Below are positions 6,616 through 16,813 of a stretch of 64,000 nucleotides of DNA, in pieces. Numbering within the stretch: position 1 is the first letter of the stretch; every line of letters begins with the position of its first letter. A program made the translations under genes and the position numbers. Origin of the DNA: Solitalea canadensis DSM 3403 (GTDB lineage: Bacteria > Bacteroidota > Bacteroidia > Sphingobacteriales > Sphingobacteriaceae); assembly GCF_000242635.2 (NCBI RefSeq), contig NC_017770.1, positions 868,001 to 932,000 on the forward strand, in the 5' to 3' direction. Under the pieces are notes generated by a model. That model searched no databases. It was not told the DNA's origin and worked only from the letters and a program-made list of their open reading frames with translations.

Positions 6616-8982
6616 TTATGCAGAGCAAGTAACACATCCTTCTTCCATCGTACAAACCGGTCCTGTGATTTCTTCTTCCACACCGGTGTGTTGTACCATA
6701 GGTTCTAATTGTTTTTCAGCTTGTTTTTCAACCGTAAACTTAACCGCAGCGTTTGCAGCTTGTGTACGTAAATAGTACATGCCGGTTTTAAGTCCTTTTT
6801 TCCATGCATAGAAATGCATAGAGGTTAGTTTAGCATTGTTAGGACTTTGAACAAACAAATTCAACGACTGGCTCTGACAGGTATATGCACCGCGATCAGC
6901 AGCCATGTCAATTAATGTACGTTGCTTGATTTCCCAAACTGTTTTATACAGCTCTTTAATATGCTGAGGAATTTCTTTGATATCTTGAATTGATCCTTCT
7001 GCAGCAATAATCTTATTTTTCATTTGGCCATCCCACAGATTAAGAGCAACCAAATCTTTTAACAAGTGCTTGTTCACCACGATGAATTCACCGGATAGTA
7101 CACGACGAACATAAATATTTGAAGTGTATGGTTCAAAACATTCGTTGTTACCAAATATCTGTGATGTTGACGCTGTTGGCATCGGTGCAACTAATAAAGA
7201 GTTACGAATACCGTATTTTTTGATTTCTTTTTTCAATCCGTCAAAATCCCAACGTTTGCTAGGGGTAACATTCCACATGTCATATTGAAGGATACCCTTT
7301 GAGGATGGAGAACCTTCATAAGTTTCATATGGTCCATCCACTTTTGCAAGGTCTTTTGATGCAGATAATGCTGCGAAGTAAATGGTTTCGGCAATTTCGC
7401 GGTTCAAACTTTGTGCTTCAGCAGACTCAAAAGGATGGCGTAACATGATGAAAACATCTGCCAAACCTTGAATACCCAAACCAACCGGACGGTGGCGGAG
7501 GTTAGAGTTGCGAGCCTCTTCAACAGGATAGTAGTTGCCGTCTATAATCTTGTTAAGATTAAGCGTTGCCTGGTAAGTTACTTCGTATAATTTTTGGTGA
7601 TCAAACTCACCGTTGATAACAAATTTTGGTAATGAAATAGAAGCCAGGTTACATACTGCAACTTCATCTTCAGCAGTATACTCCATAATTTCAGTACACA
7701 AGTTAGAAGACTTGATTGTACCTAAATTTTGCTGATTCGATTTTTTGTTAGCAGCATCTTTGTAAAGCATGTACGGAGTTCCGGTTTCAATTTGAGAATC
7801 CATAATAGCGAACCAGAGTTCCTGAGCTTTAACCGTTTTACGAGCTTTACCTTCTTTTTCGTAACGCTCATATAATGCCTCAAAATCGTCTCCATAGGTG
7901 TCGTATAAACCAGGAGCTTCGTGCGGACAGAATAAGCTCCACTCACCATTCGATTCAACACGTTTCATGAACAAGTCTGGAATCCATAACGCGTAGAATA
8001 GATCGCGTGCACGTAATTCTTCCTTACCGTGGTTTTTACGTAAGTCTAAGAAGTCAAAAATGTCGGCGTGCCAAGGTTCTAAGTAGATAGCAAAAGCTCC
8101 TTTACGCTTACCACCTCCTTGATCAACGTAACGTGCAGTGTCATTAAATACACGTAACATAGGAACAATACCATTGGACGTTCCATTAGTTCCGCTGATG
8201 TAAGAACCTGTTGCACGAATATTATGGATGCTTAAGCCAATACCACCTGCTGATTGTGAAATTTTGGCAGTTTGTTTTAATGTATCATAAATCCCTTCTA
8301 TGCTATCATCCTTCATTGTTAATAAGAAACAAGACGACATCTGAGGTTTTGGAGTTCCGGCGTTAAATAGGGTAGGAGTTGCATGGGTAAACCATTTTTC
8401 CGACATCAGATTGTAAGTTTTGATAACCGAATCGATGTCTTCTTTATGGATGCCAACAGCCACACGCATATACATGTGTTGAGGACGTTCTGCCACTCGA
8501 CCATTGAGTTTTAACAGATACGAACGTTCAAGCGTTTTAAATCCAAAATAATCAAAAGCAAAATCACGATCGTAAATGATGTTTGAATCTAACGTATCAG
8601 CGTTTTGGCGGATAATTTCAATTACATCATCTGAAAGCAATTGTGCATTTAAGCCTGTTTTTGGATCAATATAATTGTATAGTCGTTCCATGGTTTTTGA
8701 AAACGACTTTTCAGTATTCTTATGTAAGTTAGACACAGCGATACGCGAGGCCAACAATGCGTAGTCAGGGTGTTTAACGGTTAATGAAGCAGCTGTTTCG
8801 GCAGCTAAATTATCAAGTTCAGAAGTTGTTACGCCATCGTACAAACCTTCAATCACTTTTTTAGCTACATCAATAGAATCAACATGGTTACTATCGAGTC
8901 CATAGCTTAATTTTTCTATCCTGGCGGTGATTTTGTCAAATTTCACCGATTCAGTTCTGCCGTCGCGTTTAATTACAAACAT
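6616..8982 (-). CDS. nrdA: Ribonucleoside-diphosphate reductase, alpha (large) subunit
   Basis: A 788-residue class I ribonucleotide reductase large chain. It reduces ribonucleoside diphosphates to deoxyribonucleotides in the cytoplasm together with NrdB. An ATP-cone (allosteric activity site) occupies about residues 1-90. The redox pair is Cys218 (SSCFL) and Cys444 (VCNLAS). The active-site loop NLCTE gives Asn427, Cys429 and Glu431. The radical-relay tyrosines are in GMYYLRT near residue 735, and the shuttle cysteines lie at the extreme C-terminus (Cys777, Cys783, Cys786). All essential residues are present. The order nrdB-nrdA on the minus strand with a 144-bp gap is reversed relative to E. 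coli but common in Bacteroidota. It ends at a bidirectional terminator. Confidence 0.96.
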
Positions 8983-9126: not shown

Positions 9127-10098
9127 TTAAAAGTCCTCATCCAGTGAGAAAATGTTACTGTCTTTATCAGACAGGACACCACTCTTCTGATAATCACCAA
9201 CTCGTTTTTCAAAGAAATTGGTTTTCCCTTGTAATGAAATCATTTCCATGAAGTCGAAAGGGTTAGTTGCATTATAGATTTTTGAATATCCTAAGGCATT
9301 TAACCATCTGTCGGCCACGAATTCTATGTATTGTTGCATTAATTTGGCATTCATGCCGATTAATGCAACAGGTAATGCATCTGTAATAAATTGCTTTTCA
9401 ATTTCTACTGCATCTGTAATTATTTGATGAACACGTTCCTCAGACAATTTGTTGATTAACATACTGTACAATAAGCATGCAAACTCACAGTGAGAACCTT
9501 CATCACGAGAAATAAGCTCATTTGAGAACGTTAGCCCCGGCATTAAGCCTCGTTTTTTCAACCAGAAAATTGAACAGAAAGAACCTGAGAAAAATATACC
9601 CTCAACTGCGGCAAAAGCTACCAGTCGTTCCGCAAAGGTTCCGTTTTCAATCCATCTTAACGCCCACTCAGCTTTTTGCTTAACACAAGGAACGGTTTCA
9701 ATGGCGTTGAACAAACGGTTTTTTTCAGCTGTATCTTTCACATAGGTGTCGATTAACAAAGCATATGTTTCAGAATGGATGTTTTCCATCATGATCTGGA
9801 AACCATAATAACAACGAGCTTCAGGAATCTGAACTTCGCTCATAAAGTTTACAGCAAGGTTTTCGTTCACAATACCATCGCTGGCAGCAAAAAATGCCAA
9901 TACATGTGAAATGAAGTGTCGCTCCCCATCATTAAAATTCTCCCAATCCTTCAAGTCAAGTGAAAGGTCAATTTCTTCAGCCGTCCAGAAACTGGCTTCA
10001 GCCTTTTTATACATCTCCCATATTTCGGGATATTTAATAGGAAGCAATACAAATCGCTCCTTATTTTCTTGTAAAAGTGGCTCTTGAACGTTTTTCAT
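9127..10098 (-). CDS. nrdB: Ribonucleoside-diphosphate reductase, beta (radical-generating) subunit
   Basis: A 323-residue class I ribonucleotide reductase small chain that houses the di-metal centre and supplies the radical used by NrdA. The ligands can be placed by motif: Asp44 (EEIDLS), Glu105 and His108 (ENIHSETY), Glu166 (VEGIFF), Glu200 and His203 (DEGSHCEF). Tyr112 occupies the radical tyrosine position, so this looks like a tyrosyl-radical class Ia/Ib-type protein rather than class Ic. The C-terminus ends in NIFSLDEDF, the acidic tail that docks to the large subunit. First gene of the nrdB-nrdA pair, it is preceded by an unusually long leader (10099-10422). Confidence 0.95.
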
Positions 10099-10590: not shown

Positions 10591-11055
10591 TCAGGAAAGT
10601 AATTTTTGACGAAGTAAAAACTCCAATTGATCATTTGCCTGTTCCAGATCTTCAGTTAACTGTCGGTTCATTTTTCTAAGCGTATATACTTCAAAAGCTG
10701 TTTCAATATTATGGCGAAGTTCTTCTTCATCCCAGGGTTTGCTAATGTAGCGGTATACTTGCCCTTTATTAATTGCATCAATAACAGCTGAAATATCAGC
10801 ATATCCAGTTAGTAACATTCTGATTGGGTCTGGAAAAGTGTCTATGATGGAGGCTAAAAATTCAATTCCTGTAATTTGGGGCATTCGTTGGTCGGTAATG
10901 AGCACATGAATTTCATTTTGCTCAAGTATTTTACGCCCTTCTTCAGCAGAATCTGCTGTAAATACATTATATAACCGACGAAAACTAGCTTTAAATGCTG
11001 TTAAATTGTGTAATTCGTCATCTATATACAATACATTTATTTGTTCCTGACTCAT
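10591..11055 (-). CDS. Response regulator: receiver domain plus C-terminal coiled coil
   Basis: A 154-residue single-receiver protein. The acidic pair Asp12-Asp13, the phospho-acceptor Asp55 (TDQRMP), Thr83 and Lys106 (SKPW) are all present, so it should be phosphorylatable. A helical tail after residue 120 (LRKMNRQLTEDLEQ region) looks like a coiled coil and carries no DNA-binding or enzymatic domain. It is RpfG-like in the receiver only. It closely resembles the receiver of the hybrid kinase at 15294 (shared YIDDE, DQRMP, GY.D, YRYI.KPW), so the two are paralogues. It is divergent from the operon starting at 11168, 112 bp away, and probably belongs to the same signalling system. The partner kinase is not proven. 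Confidence 0.88.
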   Translation of the reverse strand: MSQEQINVLYIDDELHNLTAFKASFRRLYNVFTADSAEEGRKILEQNEIHVLITDQRMPQITGIEFLASIIDTFPDPIRMLLTGYADISAVIDAINKGQVYRYISKPWDEEELRHNIETAFEVYTLRKMNRQLTEDLEQANDQLEFLLRQKLLS

Positions 11056-11167
11056 AATTATTATTTGTTACTACAAAGATTCGAATATCCTCTATAAAAT
11101 TCTATCTTCGAAAATATTTGCTCTACTTTTACGCCCAACAATTAAACCCCTAACAAAAACCATAACC

Positions 11168-12325
11168 ATGAGCGTTGCTGTGGACTTTTCGCAATTATTG
11201 CGTTACAAAGTTCGTGAATCTAATTCACGAACTAATGATCACGTGCCTGAATTTTTTAGGCTAAATAATGTTCTTGATGCTGAAAAATTCTACCATCTAC
11301 TCCAATTCAACTCAGCTGTAAAGGTTTACGATGAACTTAACAGTCAACTCAAAGAATTGTTGAAGTTAAGAAATGTTGGTCAACAATTTTCTGATCAAGA
11401 CCTGCAACAGTTAGTTAATGAACATTTAAAAAATAGCTCAAGCGACCGTTATGGCGTTTGGGTTTATTATCCCTGGTCCAATAAAGTAGTTCATCTTTTA
11501 GATGAAGAAGAATTTATTGAAGTAAGAACCAGCAGGAACAAACTTAAAATTACCAAAGAAGAACAGGAAACTCTCCATCAAAAAAGAATCGGAATTATCG
11601 GGCTTTCGGTAGGACAATCTGTTGCTTTAACGATAGCTATGGAACGCAGCTGTGGTGAATTACGATTGGCTGATTTTGATGAGTTAGAATTAAGTAATTT
11701 AAACAGAGTAAGAGCAGGTGTAGACCAATTAGGTTTGTCGAAAGTGATTTGTGCGGCAAGGCAAATAGCTGAAATAGATCCTTTTATTAAGGTGAAATGC
11801 TATACACAAGGTGCCTCTGTTGGTAATTTAAATGACTTCATGGGTGATAACTCAGATCAGCTTGATTTGTTGGTCGAAGTCTGTGATAATTTCGAAATGA
11901 AAATCTTATGTCGGTTAGCTGCACGTCAAAAAAAAATTCCGGTGATCATGGAAACTAACGATAGAGGTATGCTTGATATTGAACGTTTTGATATAGAGGC
12001 GAGTAGAAAAATACTTCATGGAACGGTTGAAAATCTAGAAGGAGAGCTTACTGATGTAGCTGCAATACTGAAAAAAATGACACCTCAGGAACGAATGGGC
12101 TACCTTACCAAGATTGTTGGTGTGGAAAACATTTCAGACAGAATGAAACTTTCTTTGGCAAATATGGGTAAAACCCTAAATAGTTGGCCTCAGGTAGCAT
12201 CTTCAGTAGTTGTAGGGGGTGGATTAGTAGTCAACGCTTGCCGAAGAATACTCTTAGGTTCATTTAAGTCATCCGGTCGTTTTTTCGTAGATCTTGATGA
12301 ATTAGTTGCTGATCGACCGGAATAA
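11168..12325 (+). CDS. E1-like (ThiF/MoeB/HesA superfamily) adenylyltransferase
   Basis: A 385-residue protein with an unrecognised N-terminal region of about 135 residues, followed by a ThiF-type Rossmann domain. The nucleotide loop is at residues 142-149 (GIIGLSVG), the second acidic motif ADFDELELSNLNR carries Asp169 and Asp171, and Asp240 in VCDNFEMK matches the catalytic Mg-binding Asp of MoeB/ThiF (TDN motif). The zinc-binding CxxC pairs of classical MoeB/ThiF are not seen. This places it with the atypical group sometimes annotated Rv1355c-like, but without that group's C-terminal nitroreductase part. Such enzymes adenylate a carboxylate, often a protein or peptide C-terminus; the substrate here is unknown. 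No ubiquitin-like partner is encoded nearby. First gene of a five-gene signalling operon. Confidence 0.85.
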   Translation: MSVAVDFSQLLRYKVRESNSRTNDHVPEFFRLNNVLDAEKFYHLLQFNSAVKVYDELNSQLKELLKLRNVGQQFSDQDLQQLVNEHLKNSSSDRYGVWVYYPWSNKVVHLLDEEEFIEVRTSRNKLKITKEEQETLHQKRIGIIGLSVGQSVALTIAMERSCGELRLADFDELELSNLNRVRAGVDQLGLSKVICAARQIAEIDPFIKVKCYTQGASVGNLNDFMGDNSDQLDLLVEVCDNFEMKILCRLAARQKKIPVIMETNDRGMLDIERFDIEASRKILHGTVENLEGELTDVAAILKKMTPQERMGYLTKIVGVENISDRMKLSLANMGKTLNSWPQVASSVVVGGGLVVNACRRILLGSFKSSGRFFVDLDELVADRPE

Positions 12326-12413
12326 ATAGCTTTAGTGAATAATTGAATACAATATTTTTCGCCAGGATGGTTAACATTGTCATGTATCTTTTTATCTTTC
12401 GTCTTTTTGTAAA

Positions 12414-13133
12414 ATGGTCGGTATTAGAGTTTTTCGGGCGGTTGATGATGCAGATGCATGTAAGAAATACATAGAAGGTCATCGTCGCATTCTTGAAATC
12501 CATGGAGTTGTTAAGATTACTTCTTACAGACATGATTGGGTAGACGACCCGCATACCATGGTTATTTTGGTAGAAGAACTGGAAACAGGAAGAGTATTTG
12601 GAGGAGCACGATTGCAATTACGCAGAAGTGGTATTCCATTGCCGATAGAACTGGCGTTGAATAAATACGATCCAAAGATATTAAGCATGGTGAGTGATGC
12701 GGAGCAGAACGGAGGTACATGTGAATTATGTGGATTGTGGAACTCGATGGAAGTTGCAGGGATGGGAATTGGGAGCTATATACTTTCGCGAATCGGAGCC
12801 GCTATATCATCACAATTGCCTGTTACCAGCATATTCGTTTTATGCTCACCTGTAACAGTAAGGATGGGCAGAAGAGTAGGAGCCCTGGTAGAACGTACAT
12901 TGGGAAACAATGGATTGTTCTATTATCCTAAAGATGACCTGATTGCTACTGCCATGGTGCTAAGCGATTGTGATGCGTTGATACATGCGGATGAAAATGA
13001 GCGGGAATTGATTTTTGATCTTAGGCGCAATCCAAAACAAACAAGGGTAGAAAGTGGTCCCAAAGGCCAATTCGAACTTGATTATGATATTTTAATAAGG
13101 GAGCTGAATTATAATTTGAGTGATATAAAATGA
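12414..13133 (+). CDS. GNAT-like N-acyltransferase
   Basis: A 239-residue protein. The central part has GNAT-fold features: a strand ending in GGARLQLR near residues 63-70, then ELCGLWNS (104-111), and an acyl-CoA pyrophosphate loop GMGIG at 116-120 followed by the SYILSRIG helix. The N-terminal segment and overall length recall the larger acyltransferases related to autoinducer synthases and PEP-CTERM-associated acyltransferases more than small N-acetyltransferases, but I cannot assign a subfamily. It is 88 bp after the E1-like gene. Its stop overlaps the ATG of the sensor kinase (ATGA at 13130), implying translational coupling. Acylation of a product or partner of the E1-like enzyme is an attractive but unproven role. 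Confidence 0.7.
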   Translation: MVGIRVFRAVDDADACKKYIEGHRRILEIHGVVKITSYRHDWVDDPHTMVILVEELETGRVFGGARLQLRRSGIPLPIELALNKYDPKILSMVSDAEQNGGTCELCGLWNSMEVAGMGIGSYILSRIGAAISSQLPVTSIFVLCSPVTVRMGRRVGALVERTLGNNGLFYYPKDDLIATAMVLSDCDALIHADENERELIFDLRRNPKQTRVESGPKGQFELDYDILIRELNYNLSDIK

Positions 13134-15313
13134 GATTATTAAAACTGCAACTTTTGCTTTTTATGCTCATCTTACCTGTGCTAAAAACGCAGGCAGCCCT
13201 TCCTTTTACTATTGCGAAACCTGGAAAAGTTTATGCTGTTGGTAAGCAAGTTTGGATCTATGAAGATGCATCCGGAGAGAAAACCATTGAAGACATTAAC
13301 CATGAGTCCCAATTTGTTTTAGGTAAAGATCCAATTCCCAACTTTGGAATTACTTCATCAAATTTTTGGTTACGCTTAGAATTAGTAAATAATACAGGGA
13401 AAGAAGACCTATTATTACTGATCGAGAACCCAATAATTGACGAAGTTGAGTTCTATTATACAGATTCGCAGGGAAATATTCGATCTGATGTTTCTGGAGA
13501 ACACAAAACCTTCGCCTCAAGAACAATTCAACACTCTAATTATATTTTTTCCTTACCGCTGAAAAACAATGAGCGTTCCATCTGCTACCTGAAAATAAAA
13601 AGCAATGACCAGCTTCAATTGCCTTTATTTGTGGGAACAGAAGAAGCTATTTATCAGCGTTTGTTACTTAGAGATCTGCTCTTTGGTATCTATGCAGGCA
13701 TTATCGCTGTAATGATATTGTACAATCTGTTCGTATATCTATCAGTAAAAGATAACAGTTATATATACTACGTATTCTTTATCCTGTTTGTTGGTTTATC
13801 ACAAGCTACATTAGAAGGTTTAGGTTTCCGGTTCTTATGGCCAGGTTCTCCTTGGATGGCCATAAATAGTACGGTGATAATTCCGGCTTTATCCGGCGTT
13901 ACCACCGGATTGTTTATGAAGAGTTTTCTTCAAACAGCACGGTATGCTCCGGTTTTAGATAAGATCATCAATAGTTTTATTGGAGGATATATCATTGCGT
14001 TAATTGCCTGCCTTCTTGGATTTAATCAGTTTGGATTGCAATTGTTGCACGTAGCTGGTGCAGGAGGCTCTTTCTTTGCCTTATATGTAGGATACCGCAT
14101 TCATAAATTGGGTAACAGATCCGGACGTTTTTTCCTGATTGCCAACTCTATTTTCCTGTTGGCCGTTATCGGATTTGTACTCCGGAATGTAAATATCATT
14201 CCTTATAATACATTCACATCGATCATTCTGGAGTTAGGATCGGCTTTACAAGTTATTCTACTTTCTTTTGCGTTGGCAGATAAGATCAATACGCTGAAAG
14301 TAGAAAAGGAACATTCGCAGGCAATGGCCTTACTTGCCTCGCGTGAAAATGAACGATTGATAACAGAGCAGAATATAATGCTCGAAGCAAAAGTATATGA
14401 GCGCACACGTGAGCTTCAATTTACTAATGGCGAATTAATCAATACCCTTCATAAATTAAAGGATACACAATCGCAATTAGTGGAAGCTGAAAAAATGGCT
14501 TCATTAGGACAACTTACAGCCGGCATAGCTCATGAGATCAATAATCCGATCAATTTTGTAAGTTCAAATGTGAAACCTCTCCAAATGGATATTGATGATC
14601 TGTTTGCGGTGATTGCCAAATATGAAGAGCTGGATCTAACGGCAAGTCCGGCAGAAAAGCTGAAAGAAATAGAAAACTTTAAGCGTAAGATCGACCTTGA
14701 ATATGTAGGGGAAGAAATTAAATCATTATTACGAGGCATTGAAGATGGAGCAACACGAACTGCCGAAATAGTAAAAGGACTACGTAATTTCAGTAGATTG
14801 GATGAAAGTGAATTAAAATTAGCGGATATACATACCTGTATTGATTCAACATTGGTAGTATTAAAGCACTCTATTCCTAATGGTGCAAACATTGTACGTG
14901 ATTTTTCATCTGTACCTCAGATTGAGTGTTATCCGGGTAAACTAAATCAGGCATTGCTTAATTTGTTAAATAATGCCTTCCATGCTATTTGTAAGAAAAC
15001 AAACTTTATTGAGCATACCGTTACAATCAGTACATCGTATGTAGATGAAATGGTAATGATTGCTATTTCAGATACAGGCATTGGTATGCCGGAAGAAGTA
15101 AAAGAAAAAATATTTGAACCGTTTTTTACCACCAAAGAGGTAGGAGAAGGAACAGGACTCGGACTATCTATTGTTTATAAAATCATTGAAAAACATCAAG
15201 GGAAAATTGAAGTTTCTTCAGTTCCTGATATTGGGACTACGTTTACGCTGCTCTTGCCAAAACAATTAGAAACCAAACAAAAGATTTTTATCAATGAACT
15301 TGTCCAATCGTAA
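13130..15313 (+). CDS. 7TMR-DISM sensor histidine kinase
   Basis: A 727-residue membrane sensor kinase. Order: signal peptide 1-22; periplasmic 7TMR-DISMED2 beta-sandwich about 35-170, a domain thought to bind carbohydrates or other small ligands; seven membrane helices about 183-395; a coiled coil; a HisKA domain with phospho-acceptor His468 in GIAHEINNP; and an HATPase domain with N-box N611-N615 (NLLNN), G1 DTGIG at 648 and G2 GTGLGLS at 674. The kinase belongs to the HPK4-like class with extra residues between the H-box and N-box. It is complete and coupled to the upstream acyltransferase (4-bp overlap) and to the downstream receiver-kinase (20-bp overlap). This arrangement suggests it senses a ligand connected with the first two genes; that link is inference. 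Confidence 0.92.
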   Translation: MRLLKLQLLLFMLILPVLKTQAALPFTIAKPGKVYAVGKQVWIYEDASGEKTIEDINHESQFVLGKDPIPNFGITSSNFWLRLELVNNTGKEDLLLLIENPIIDEVEFYYTDSQGNIRSDVSGEHKTFASRTIQHSNYIFSLPLKNNERSICYLKIKSNDQLQLPLFVGTEEAIYQRLLLRDLLFGIYAGIIAVMILYNLFVYLSVKDNSYIYYVFFILFVGLSQATLEGLGFRFLWPGSPWMAINSTVIIPALSGVTTGLFMKSFLQTARYAPVLDKIINSFIGGYIIALIACLLGFNQFGLQLLHVAGAGGSFFALYVGYRIHKLGNRSGRFFLIANSIFLLAVIGFVLRNVNIIPYNTFTSIILELGSALQVILLSFALADKINTLKVEKEHSQAMALLASRENERLITEQNIMLEAKVYERTRELQFTNGELINTLHKLKDTQSQLVEAEKMASLGQLTAGIAHEINNPINFVSSNVKPLQMDIDDLFAVIAKYEELDLTASPAEKLKEIENFKRKIDLEYVGEEIKSLLRGIEDGATRTAEIVKGLRNFSRLDESELKLADIHTCIDSTLVVLKHSIPNGANIVRDFSSVPQIECYPGKLNQALLNLLNNAFHAICKKTNFIEHTVTISTSYVDEMVMIAISDTGIGMPEEVKEKIFEPFFTTKEVGEGTGLGLSIVYKIIEKHQGKIEVSSVPDIGTTFTLLLPKQLETKQKIFINELVQS

Positions 15314-16415
15314 TTCAGTCAGGGTATTATATATAGATGACGAGCAAAATAATTTAATCACCTTTAAGGCAGCTTTCAGACGTGAGTTTGAAATTTATAC
15401 AGCTTTATCAGCCAATGAAGGCATAAAGATATTGCAGGAAATCCCTGTTCATGTAATCATTGCCGATCAACGCATGCCGAATTGCACAGGAGTAGAATTC
15501 TTCAGATCGGTAGTTGAAAAATATCCTGATCCGGTACGCATTTTAATAACCGGATACACAGATGCTGAAGCTTTAATAGATGCTATTAATAATGGTCATG
15601 TGTATCGATACATTGCTAAGCCCTGGAATGAAATGGAATTGCGCAATGCTATCTATAATGCTTTTGACGTATTTCAGACCAAGAAACAACTTCAGCAAAA
15701 TATCGAAGATTTACAAAAAGCCAATGATGAGCTGAACCGATTTATATACAGCCTTTCTCATGACCTCCGCTCTCCGTTAATGTCAATTTTGGGTGTAATT
15801 AAATTAGCCAATCTTGAACAATCGGTAAATGACCCTAACGGATATATGGGTATTATTGAGCAGAGTGTAAATAAATTGGATGGCTTTATCCTAAAGGTTA
15901 TTGAGTATTATCAAAACTCACGTGCAGAAGCACTGCCCGAAAGTATCAGCTTTAAGTGCCTGATTAATGATATGCTTGAAAGCTTTAAACCGCAGAATAC
16001 ACAAATTATATATGATACAGAAATTCAACAAGGAGCAGACTTTAAGGGAGACAGTTTCCGCATTTCAGTTATTTTGAATAACCTAATTTCTAATGCGGTT
16101 AAATATCAACGCACAGAAGAAAGAGACCCACGAATCAATATAAAAGTAAAAGTAAATTCAGCTAAAGCATTAATATCTATAAGCGATAACGGAATAGGTA
16201 TTTTGCATGAACACCTTGATCAGATCTTTAAGTTATTTTTCAGAGCTAAAAACACAAAGCGTACTGGAACCGGAATCGGTTTGTATATAGTGAAAGAAGC
16301 GTTAAACAAAATAGGAGGAGATATTGCCGTTCATTCTAAACTTGGAGAAGGAACACAATTCGATATAACAATTCCTAACATGGTGGTGGTGGAGGAGCCT
16401 GTTTTATGCGGGTAA
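15294..16415 (+). CDS. Receiver-histidine kinase hybrid (REC-HisKA-HATPase)
   Basis: A 373-residue soluble protein. The N-terminal receiver (about 8-125) has phospho-acceptor Asp58 in ADQRMP and a KPW lysine. It is followed by a linker helix, a HisKA domain with His156 in SLSHDLRSP, and an HATPase domain with DNGIG, an FKLFFRA F-box and GTGIGLYIV. Because the receiver precedes the kinase, it can take phosphate from the upstream kinase and act as a regulated second kinase. Its start overlaps the preceding gene by 20 bp and its end overlaps the next by 10 bp, so all three are co-translated. The receiver is a paralogue of the divergent receiver at 10591. Confidence 0.92.
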   Translation: MNLSNRNSVRVLYIDDEQNNLITFKAAFRREFEIYTALSANEGIKILQEIPVHVIIADQRMPNCTGVEFFRSVVEKYPDPVRILITGYTDAEALIDAINNGHVYRYIAKPWNEMELRNAIYNAFDVFQTKKQLQQNIEDLQKANDELNRFIYSLSHDLRSPLMSILGVIKLANLEQSVNDPNGYMGIIEQSVNKLDGFILKVIEYYQNSRAEALPESISFKCLINDMLESFKPQNTQIIYDTEIQQGADFKGDSFRISVILNNLISNAVKYQRTEERDPRINIKVKVNSAKALISISDNGIGILHEHLDQIFKLFFRAKNTKRTGTGIGLYIVKEALNKIGGDIAVHSKLGEGTQFDITIPNMVVVEEPVLCG

Positions 16416-16813
16416 TGCTAATAGACGATAGCAAAATTGATTTATTTTTAGGAGAAAAGATGCTTGGATTGAGTGGTGTAAGTAGTGAAATCATTACTTG
16501 CAGTTCCGCATCAGAAGCACTTGACTTTTTTGCAGGAAATATTTCACAACCACAGCTCCTACCTGAGCTTATTTTATTAGATATACATATGCCAGAGATG
16601 GATGGCTTTGACTTTTTGGATGAATTTATCCGTTTTCCGGAGCATATAACTCAAAATACCGGTGTATTGATGCTCACCTCTTCAGTTGATCTTAAAGACT
16701 TAGTGCGTGCAGAAGCAAATCCCCTGGTAATAAAGCTTATTAAGAAACCACTTTATCCTGATTCACTTCACCTTGCATTAGAGAATTATTTTACCGATAA
16801 AGGGGATAGTTAA
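16406..16813 (+). CDS. Single-domain response regulator (CheY-like)
   Basis: A 135-residue receiver without an output domain. Asp7-Asp8, phospho-acceptor Asp59 (LLDIHMPEMDG), a Thr/Ser switch in MLTSS and the KKP lysine are visible. It is most similar to receivers that follow hybrid kinases in Bacteroidota and would be the terminal or shuttle acceptor of the His468-Asp58-His156 chain. The start at 16406 overlaps the kinase gene by 10 bp (ATGCGGGTAATG). Because there is no DNA-binding part, the output must go through a protein partner encoded elsewhere. Last gene of the operon; a short hairpin follows at 16846. Confidence 0.9.
   Translation: MRVMLIDDSKIDLFLGEKMLGLSGVSSEIITCSSASEALDFFAGNISQPQLLPELILLDIHMPEMDGFDFLDEFIRFPEHITQNTGVLMLTSSVDLKDLVRAEANPLVIKLIKKPLYPDSLHLALENYFTDKGDS

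Follow-up and report, generated by a model that had tools for sequence, protein, structure and literature searches.

Two kinds of described system come close to the locus reported here, which lies in a window of 64,000 nucleotides (contig NC_017770.1, positions 868,001 to 932,000, forward strand) of the complete 5.2 Mb genome of Solitalea canadensis DSM 3403, a member of the Bacteroidota. The first makes N-acyl oxazolones. Here, TrzS, a ThiF-type cyclase fused to an FDO desaturase, works with the acyltransferase TrzA to deliver N-acyl tryptazolones; cyclisation, for which Asp217 of TrzS is essential, comes before desaturation (PMC12856293). The same paper notes genes for cyclic di-GMP (c-di-GMP) beside trzAS, and the idea that oxazolones might be signals is already in print there (PMC12856293). 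The second is the phcBSRQ locus of Ralstonia, which encodes a synthase (PhcB), a sensor kinase (PhcS), a protein with a receiver and a kinase part but none for binding DNA (PhcR), and a protein that is a receiver only (PhcQ) (PMC8578825, PMC6989110).

The window carries an operon that has relatives of both kinds, one for its enzymes and one for the layout of its relay. We propose, with a probability of roughly 0.6, that it encodes an autoinducer synthase together with the relay that receives the product. What is new here is, of course, not the notion of an oxazolone signal, but the kinase that is linked to oxazolone-type synthase genes. Open reading frame (ORF) calls place five co-directional genes on the + strand at 11168-16813 (window positions). 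These encode a ThiF-like protein (Pfam: ThiF), an acyltransferase, a sensor histidine kinase (7TMR-DISMED2, 7TMR-DISM_7TM, HisKA and HATPase_c), a receiver-kinase protein, REC-HK (Response_reg, HisKA and HATPase_c), and a single receiver (REC). A gap of 88 bp separates the first two; the last four overlap by 4, 20 and 10 bp. An earlier account made from the letters of the DNA, called here the sequence-only reading, had drawn this operon with its coordinates and overlaps, and a re-check of the ORF list agrees with it; His468, Asp58, His156, Asp59 and Asp240 are all at the positions it named. Its inventory was right for the five genes and overlooked a divergent single REC gene, 112 bp upstream on the - strand, whose product shares 54.5% identity, over 143 residues, with the receiver of REC-HK.

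The sequence-only reading took enzymes and kinase to be linked, and named rare adjacency in other genomes as the sign of an accident. That comparison has now been run. Across an even draw of 198 genomes of the class, a 7TMR-DISM kinase gene adjoins the acyltransferase gene at 35 of 35 loci (the window's excluded), on the same strand and no more than 1.22 kb away; the link is therefore not accidental. Cut-offs were E <= 1e-20 for the ThiF model, E <= 1e-5 for the acyltransferase model and E <= 1e-60 for the sensor model. Models A1-A3 were built from loci of a separate contig set, some of them from species also sampled among the 198, which makes E-values and ranks partly circular; the linkage counts do not depend on rank. 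ThiF was found in 34 genomes, the acyltransferase in 36 and both in 32, where about 6 would be expected (34 x 36 / 198). The two genes are close together on one contig in 30 of these 32, contig ends splitting them in the other two. Two genomes have ThiF only: in one (G087; G and L numbers denote genomes and loci) a contig end cuts the locus (L134), and in the other (G223) it is a lone ThiF-FDO gene.

As scored by script, 29 of the 35 acyltransferase loci have a REC protein longer than 300 amino acids (aa) on the same strand, and 30 have a divergent single REC. Among the five scored without the latter, L122 and L135 are split contigs whose other pieces (L123, L136) have one, and L103 hides it inside a longer ORF; at L105 and L110 none was found. 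Among L102, L127, L129, L103 and L107 are several operons with a PAS domain between the REC and kinase parts of the REC-HK protein, and some whose kinase part is HisKA_3. In the contig set, which is biased by having been found with patterns from the window protein, 49 of 66 loci have the acyltransferase and 48 of these the kinase.

The kinase itself also bears a mark of the association. The sensor model matches all 36 genomes with the acyltransferase and 36 others (72 of 198), and the top 35 of its 80 matches are all operon kinases. Twenty of the 44 non-operon matches were taken as near-paralogs (the 18 best and two of G000); no acyltransferase, ThiF, FDO or methyltransferase gene adjoins any of the 20, although contig ends truncate some of these loci (L168 spans 3.5 kb). 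Gln at sensor position 225 (Q225) is present in 100% of operon sensors vs 35% of these near-paralogs, and several other signature residues lie in the 7TM part. Such residues may mark the place of ligand binding.

The ThiF-like protein matches the NCBIfam model NF005901 (“Rv1355c family”) with an E-value of 1.6e-132 over model positions 4-340 of 722. Judged by this homology, it is a relative of the cyclase (N-terminal) half of TrzS, the maker of N-acyl oxazolones. Its Asp240, part of a CDN motif, is invariant in all 57 aligned relatives, those of Actinomadura and Patescibacteria included, and would correspond to Asp217 of TrzS.

This placement bears on what the sequence-only reading had called an E1-like enzyme, one that keeps its catalytic Asp and lacks both the zinc Cys pairs and a ubiquitin-like partner. 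The residues agree: Asp240 is kept, and the six Cys (162, 195, 211, 239, 248, 358) are nowhere spaced as CxxC. A Pfam scan of the five operon products and the divergent REC shows no family of ubiquitin-like, E2 or peptidase type. Such absences are to be expected, because the protein groups with a small-molecule cyclase; the label itself, and the protein modification that goes with it, found no support. One might still suppose that the ThiF protein has a peptide or protein as the substrate of its adenylation, or that the acyltransferase acylates a relay protein, in either case tuning the relay. Membership in the ThiF superfamily speaks for this, as do partial matches to PADLOC E1-E2 models (best 41.4 bits, residues 60-260) and a match to UBA5 (E 1.5e-7). 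The NF005901 bit score is about an order of magnitude above these, and with zinc pairs and partner families both absent, we hold this idea to be very improbable. An E1-type defence system was likewise rejected, the PADLOC matches being partial and weak.

The second gene is harder to place by sequence. Its product has no Pfam match at E <= 0.1, so the earlier label “GNAT-like” rests on the predicted fold. Its sequence, single or as a profile, finds nothing significant in the PDB; among 49 members of its family, Acetyltransf_1 was called in 6, with a best E of 0.0037. An AlphaFold2 model (predicted local distance difference test score, pLDDT, 92.5) is more informative. Foldseek places synthases of acyl-homoserine lactone (AHL) at ranks 1-5, and structure comparison gives FeeM as the best match (Z 16.9, root-mean-square deviation 3.0 over 176), with LasI and BjaI at Z 15.5; identity to the nearest FeeM and AHL-synthase structures is 10-15% in the structure alignments. 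For TyzA, too, the closest structures were reported to be FeeM and BjaI (PMC10404671). The model thus points to an N-acyltransferase of FeeM/AHL-synthase fold, a predicted N-acyl amino acid synthase.

TrzS carries an FDO desaturase; the window's cyclase does not. A profile search with the FDO half (model A5) found no full-length FDO in the window's genome or in 14 other genomes with a short ThiF, merely two partial matches of 26 and 34 positions in these 15; in the control, FDO was matched in 8 of 8 genomes with fused ThiF-FDO proteins. A misannotated remnant was considered and rejected, there being only 88 bp from the ThiF stop to the next start and no FDO elsewhere in the genome. For want of this enzyme, a saturated product is predicted: the end point in S. 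canadensis is probably a saturated oxazolone, or else the activated acid has another use, while FDO-fused relatives would make the desaturated form. Both kinds occur in the same type of operon, 28 fused and 21 short among the 49 acyltransferase-bearing loci of the contig set. On the ThiF tree (92 rows) the FDO form switches at least 8 times; these 92 rows were kept from 100, L078, L081, L084, L085, L093, L094, L095 and L136 being dropped because some FDO-less labels stemmed from contigs ending early.

The desaturase is not the only variable part. In 4 of the 36 genomes (two genera, two families), ThiF is absent and a gene for about 255 aa separates the acyltransferase from the kinase; in the two that were scanned, it is an S-adenosylmethionine (SAM) methyltransferase. 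Whether the acid group of an N-acyl amino acid is closed into a ring or methylated, the outcome would be alike, a lipid that is neutral and diffusible. This swap suggests that ring formation may count for less than capping of the acid and, with the missing FDO, it fits a signal that is an open-chain N-acyl amino acid, or some non-oxazolone product of the acyl-adenylate, the ThiF protein without FDO performing (for example) amide or ester formation. Acyl-tryptophans are, moreover, found in the medium (PMC12856293). Nevertheless, invariant residues in the 57-sequence alignment are common to fused and FDO-less ThiF proteins, and with TrzS, both the R540A replacement and oxygen limitation yielded the cyclised saturated compound; the cyclase can therefore act without desaturation (PMC12856293). 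An open-chain or other non-oxazolone signal seems, on balance, improbable.

Enzymes and kinase also diversify in step. After distances in RpoB are removed, partial correlations are 0.45 between ThiF and sensor, 0.33 between acyltransferase and sensor, and 0.54 between ThiF and kinase core, none of them reached in 2000 permutations (29-30 genomes), although Mantel tests overstate significance among related sequences. The sensor and its own kinase core give r 0.47 beyond RpoB; the co-variation of enzymes and kinase is thus about as close as that between the two halves of the kinase. Operons can, of course, persist by descent, and some loci of both samples are conspecific (L071 and L098, for example, have identical ThiF proteins), so that the linkage could be a relic of shared ancestry having no functional coupling. 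This is scarcely credible, since ThiF distances do not track those of RpoB (r -0.09), the order of ThiF and acyltransferase switches at least 7 times on the ThiF tree (79 rows) with linkage kept, and the cyclase family is paired with unrelated sensors in other phyla.

Those pairings come from two further samples, whose centre genomes (G229, G232) were picked for carrying a ThiF gene and are counted. Among 285 genomes of the Patescibacteria class around G229, 25 have ThiF (E <= 1e-40). In 21 of the 25, a co-oriented kinase gene lies 5 bp to 4.4 kb from it, and all 21 kinases match the 7TM part at the N-terminus of two that Pfam assigns to HisKA_7TM. Three of the other four (L239, L247, L250) are at contig ends, and for the fourth (L228), FDO and a 7TM kinase follow about 8 kb on, same strand (L265). 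These 25 genomes hold 82 HisKA matches, about 3 each, which makes chance a poor explanation of the proximity. FDO is inside the examined stretch at 22 of the 25 loci. In the Myxococcota around G232, ThiF is found in 14 of 282 genomes; a kinase abuts or overlaps it in 9 of the 14, a hybrid HK-REC-HK in all three that were scanned. Three kinase types (7TMR-DISM, HisKA_7TM and hybrid) thus accompany one cyclase family.

These loci hold further genes. A Patescibacteria cluster contains an aromatic amino acid lyase (L231:8760-10346, +; PF00221, E 6.2e-135), a hint that an aromatic building block is produced locally. Also recurring next to ThiF in Patescibacteria is a protein of about 500 aa (L095:633-2063, with relatives in many of L228-L246); it has no Pfam match at E <= 0.01, and by eye it resembles a PaaK-type adenylate-forming ligase, possibly one that loads the acyl group. 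In one cluster a SAM methyltransferase gene (L229:3185-3934, -) separates the kinase gene from the ligase gene, recalling the swap in Bacteroidota. Another family, of about 330-430 aa, stands beside ThiF or FDO (L094:9113-10189, L227:4976-6073, L235:5643-6620, L239:7190-8476, L249:6865-7920); its one scanned copy, L094:9113-10189, has no Pfam match, and kinship with the window's acyltransferase was rejected (hhalign probability 0.4%). In Myxococcota, proteins of 523-642 aa with no Pfam match (L255:11035-12960; L257:10307-11875, -) adjoin the hybrid kinase and ThiF-FDO genes, and L253, L254 and L258 have ORFs of like size at the same place.

From the genes, their conserved linkage, their homology and the predicted fold, we infer a product, its export, a ligand, a direction of phosphotransfer and an output. 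The second gene would N-acylate an amino acid with a fatty acyl group. The first would then use ATP to adenylate the carboxylate of this N-acyl amino acid and close an oxazolone (azlactone) ring, giving a neutral, lactone-like lipid comparable to an AHL. The product would reach the membrane or the medium, there to be read by the 7TMR-DISM kinase. His468 would hand phosphate on to the receivers of REC-HK and of the single RECs (one of which comes from the divergent gene), and the relay would end at an output beyond this locus. The single RECs may serve as relay, as sink or as feedback on synthesis, as is proposed for PhcQ. The sequence-only reading had allowed that the enzymes make, modify or conjugate the signal, or modify relay proteins; making it is the best reading, and protein modification loses support with assignment to the TrzS-type family.

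Table 1. Window coordinates of the operon and the divergent gene upstream of it.
Feature	Position	Strand	Basis
Divergent single-domain REC, 154 aa, Asp55, without output domain, PhcQ-like position	10591-11055	-	Pfam Response_reg, E 8e-19
Divergent intergenic stretch, 112 bp, presumed to contain both promoters	11056-11167	.	ORF coordinates
ThiF-like ATP-dependent cyclase, 385 aa, predicted to convert N-acyl amino acid to 5(4H)-oxazolone	11168-12325	+	NF005901 match
Predicted N-acyl amino acid synthase, 239 aa, FeeM/AHL-synthase fold	12414-13133	+	Predicted structure
7TMR-DISM sensor histidine kinase, 727 aa, His468, predicted product receptor	13130-15313	+	Pfam, linkage
Soluble REC-HK relay protein, 373 aa, Asp58, His156, PhcR-like layout	15294-16415	+	Pfam, residues
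Single-domain REC, 135 aa, Asp59, last gene of operon, without output domain	16406-16813	+	Pfam Response_reg, E 1.8e-11

Several observations weigh against the pairing of synthase and receptor. The chemical form of the signal is its weakest point. In Actinomycetota, tryptazolones are cell-associated and acyl-amino acids are in the medium, and what is secreted could thus be the open-chain form (PMC12856293). No product, ligand or phenotype is on record for any Bacteroidota locus. The ThiF protein scores 443.2 bits against NF005901, below the curated cut-off of 476, because the second (FDO) half of the model is unmatched. Ordinary GNATs come close behind FeeM (1xeb, Z 15.8), so that fold alone leaves the substrate unfixed. 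The 36th operon kinase, that of G160, ranks below 7 non-operon matches. Some ThiF-FDO loci have no adjoining kinase (G223/L133, L046, L067, four of Polyangium, three actinobacterial, L251, L252, which is a 4.5-kb contig, and L260-L262). Finally, Pfam finds no output or DNA-binding domain in the operon proteins or the divergent REC, and no target is visible.

The kinase might have a different role. The relay might sense some other cue and control a biosynthetic locus, the oxazolone being a defensive or envelope metabolite and the kinase a local regulator rather than a receptor. Regulators are often located inside biosynthetic loci, and 7TMR-DISMED2 is usually held to bind carbohydrates. Dehydro-N-acyl tyrosines (stieleriacines), further, are described as antimicrobial (PMC12856293). 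Against this, the operon proteins and the divergent REC lack a DNA-binding domain, as noted above, and the enzymes co-vary with the sensor beyond RpoB, while three kinase types are paired with one cyclase family. The last two observations are more simply explained if the product is the ligand. We therefore judge a local regulator unlikely, though worth keeping in mind, and retain the autoinducer synthase with its receptor relay.

Extended to three phyla, that proposal becomes more tentative. N-acyl oxazolones and close variants may form a general class of bacterial autoinducer, one read by membrane histidine kinases. Possible receptors would be 7TMR-DISM kinases in Bacteroidota, HisKA_7TM kinases in Patescibacteria and hybrid kinases in Myxococcota. 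Loss or retention of the desaturase, and replacement of cyclase by methyltransferase, could then alter the signal, the receptor perhaps diverging in step. With like caution, Patescibacteria having genomes below about 1 Mb may be supposed to send and read such signals, possibly toward hosts.

To our knowledge, Bacteroidota is a phylum with few known quorum signals, and we know of no kinase receptor for the predicted class. The role of oxazolones becomes testable here, with a named candidate receptor kinase in Bacteroidota that are not pathogens. If the proposal is true, there would be a new chemical class of autoinducer with a kinase receptor, and possibly chemical communication for very small Patescibacteria.

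Two neighbours in the window may be mentioned. Right downstream, 17259-39935 (+) encodes 7558 aa in one ORF; its long, near-identical repeats and Ig/PKD-like text give it the look of a giant secreted adhesin. Upstream of the divergent REC, 6616-8982 and 9127-10098 (both -) look by eye like the large and small chains of ribonucleotide reductase.

How, then, does the operon stand beside described systems? OxzAB of Pseudoalteromonas rubra reportedly follows the same three-step logic as TyzACB, with a desaturase present and no kinase relay described. TyzACB, which makes C12:0-tyrazolone, shares with the operon the logic of N-acylation, ATP-dependent cyclisation and desaturation, as well as an acyltransferase of FeeM/BjaI fold; it differs in having the desaturase, and no kinase relay is described in the part of the paper drawn on here (PMC10404671). 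In TrzAS (tryptazolone; Mycobacterium, Rhodococcus), as here, the acyltransferase gene adjoins that of a ThiF cyclase of the same NCBIfam family with the catalytic Asp kept, but TrzS is fused to the FDO desaturase, whereas the window's ThiF is unfused and no FDO was found in its genome (PMC12856293). The operon thus has the acyltransferase beside the cyclase and the fold that mark the N-acyl oxazolone pathways, the oxazolone being predicted; of NF005901 it has the cyclase domain with its Asp, below the family cut-off and lacking FDO. FeeM and the LuxI-type AHL synthases are the nearest solved folds to the acyltransferase, different in that ring closure here would fall to a separate ThiF enzyme.

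The sequence-only reading knew of no described system of this composition. This stands for the literature searched (oxazolones, Rv1355c, 7TMR-DISM, quorum sensing in Patescibacteria), as far as those sources were available, where the operon is unreported; the OxzAB paper (de Rond 2021), which possibly covers distribution, lay outside the search. The words “kinase” and “two-component” are absent from the main text of three papers on oxazolones or N-acyl tyrosines, PMC12856293 included. Each half, though, has its relative: the oxazolone pathways for the enzymes, and for the relay the layout of phcBSRQ. The order of synthase, membrane histidine kinase, soluble REC-HK without DNA-binding domain and single REC is the same (PMC8578825), and so, by prediction, is a neutral acyl signal. 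The synthases differ, PhcB being a methyltransferase that makes 3-hydroxy fatty acid methyl esters, where the window has acyltransferase and ThiF cyclase; it is the four relatives above that have a methyltransferase in the place of ThiF. The window's sensor, too, differs in being a 7TMR-DISM kinase. The likeness is one of layout, drawn from descriptions rather than by sequence, and not of membership. Thus, the operon would belong to a known type, the synthase-kinase autoinducer systems, and it is in the predicted class of its signal that it differs.

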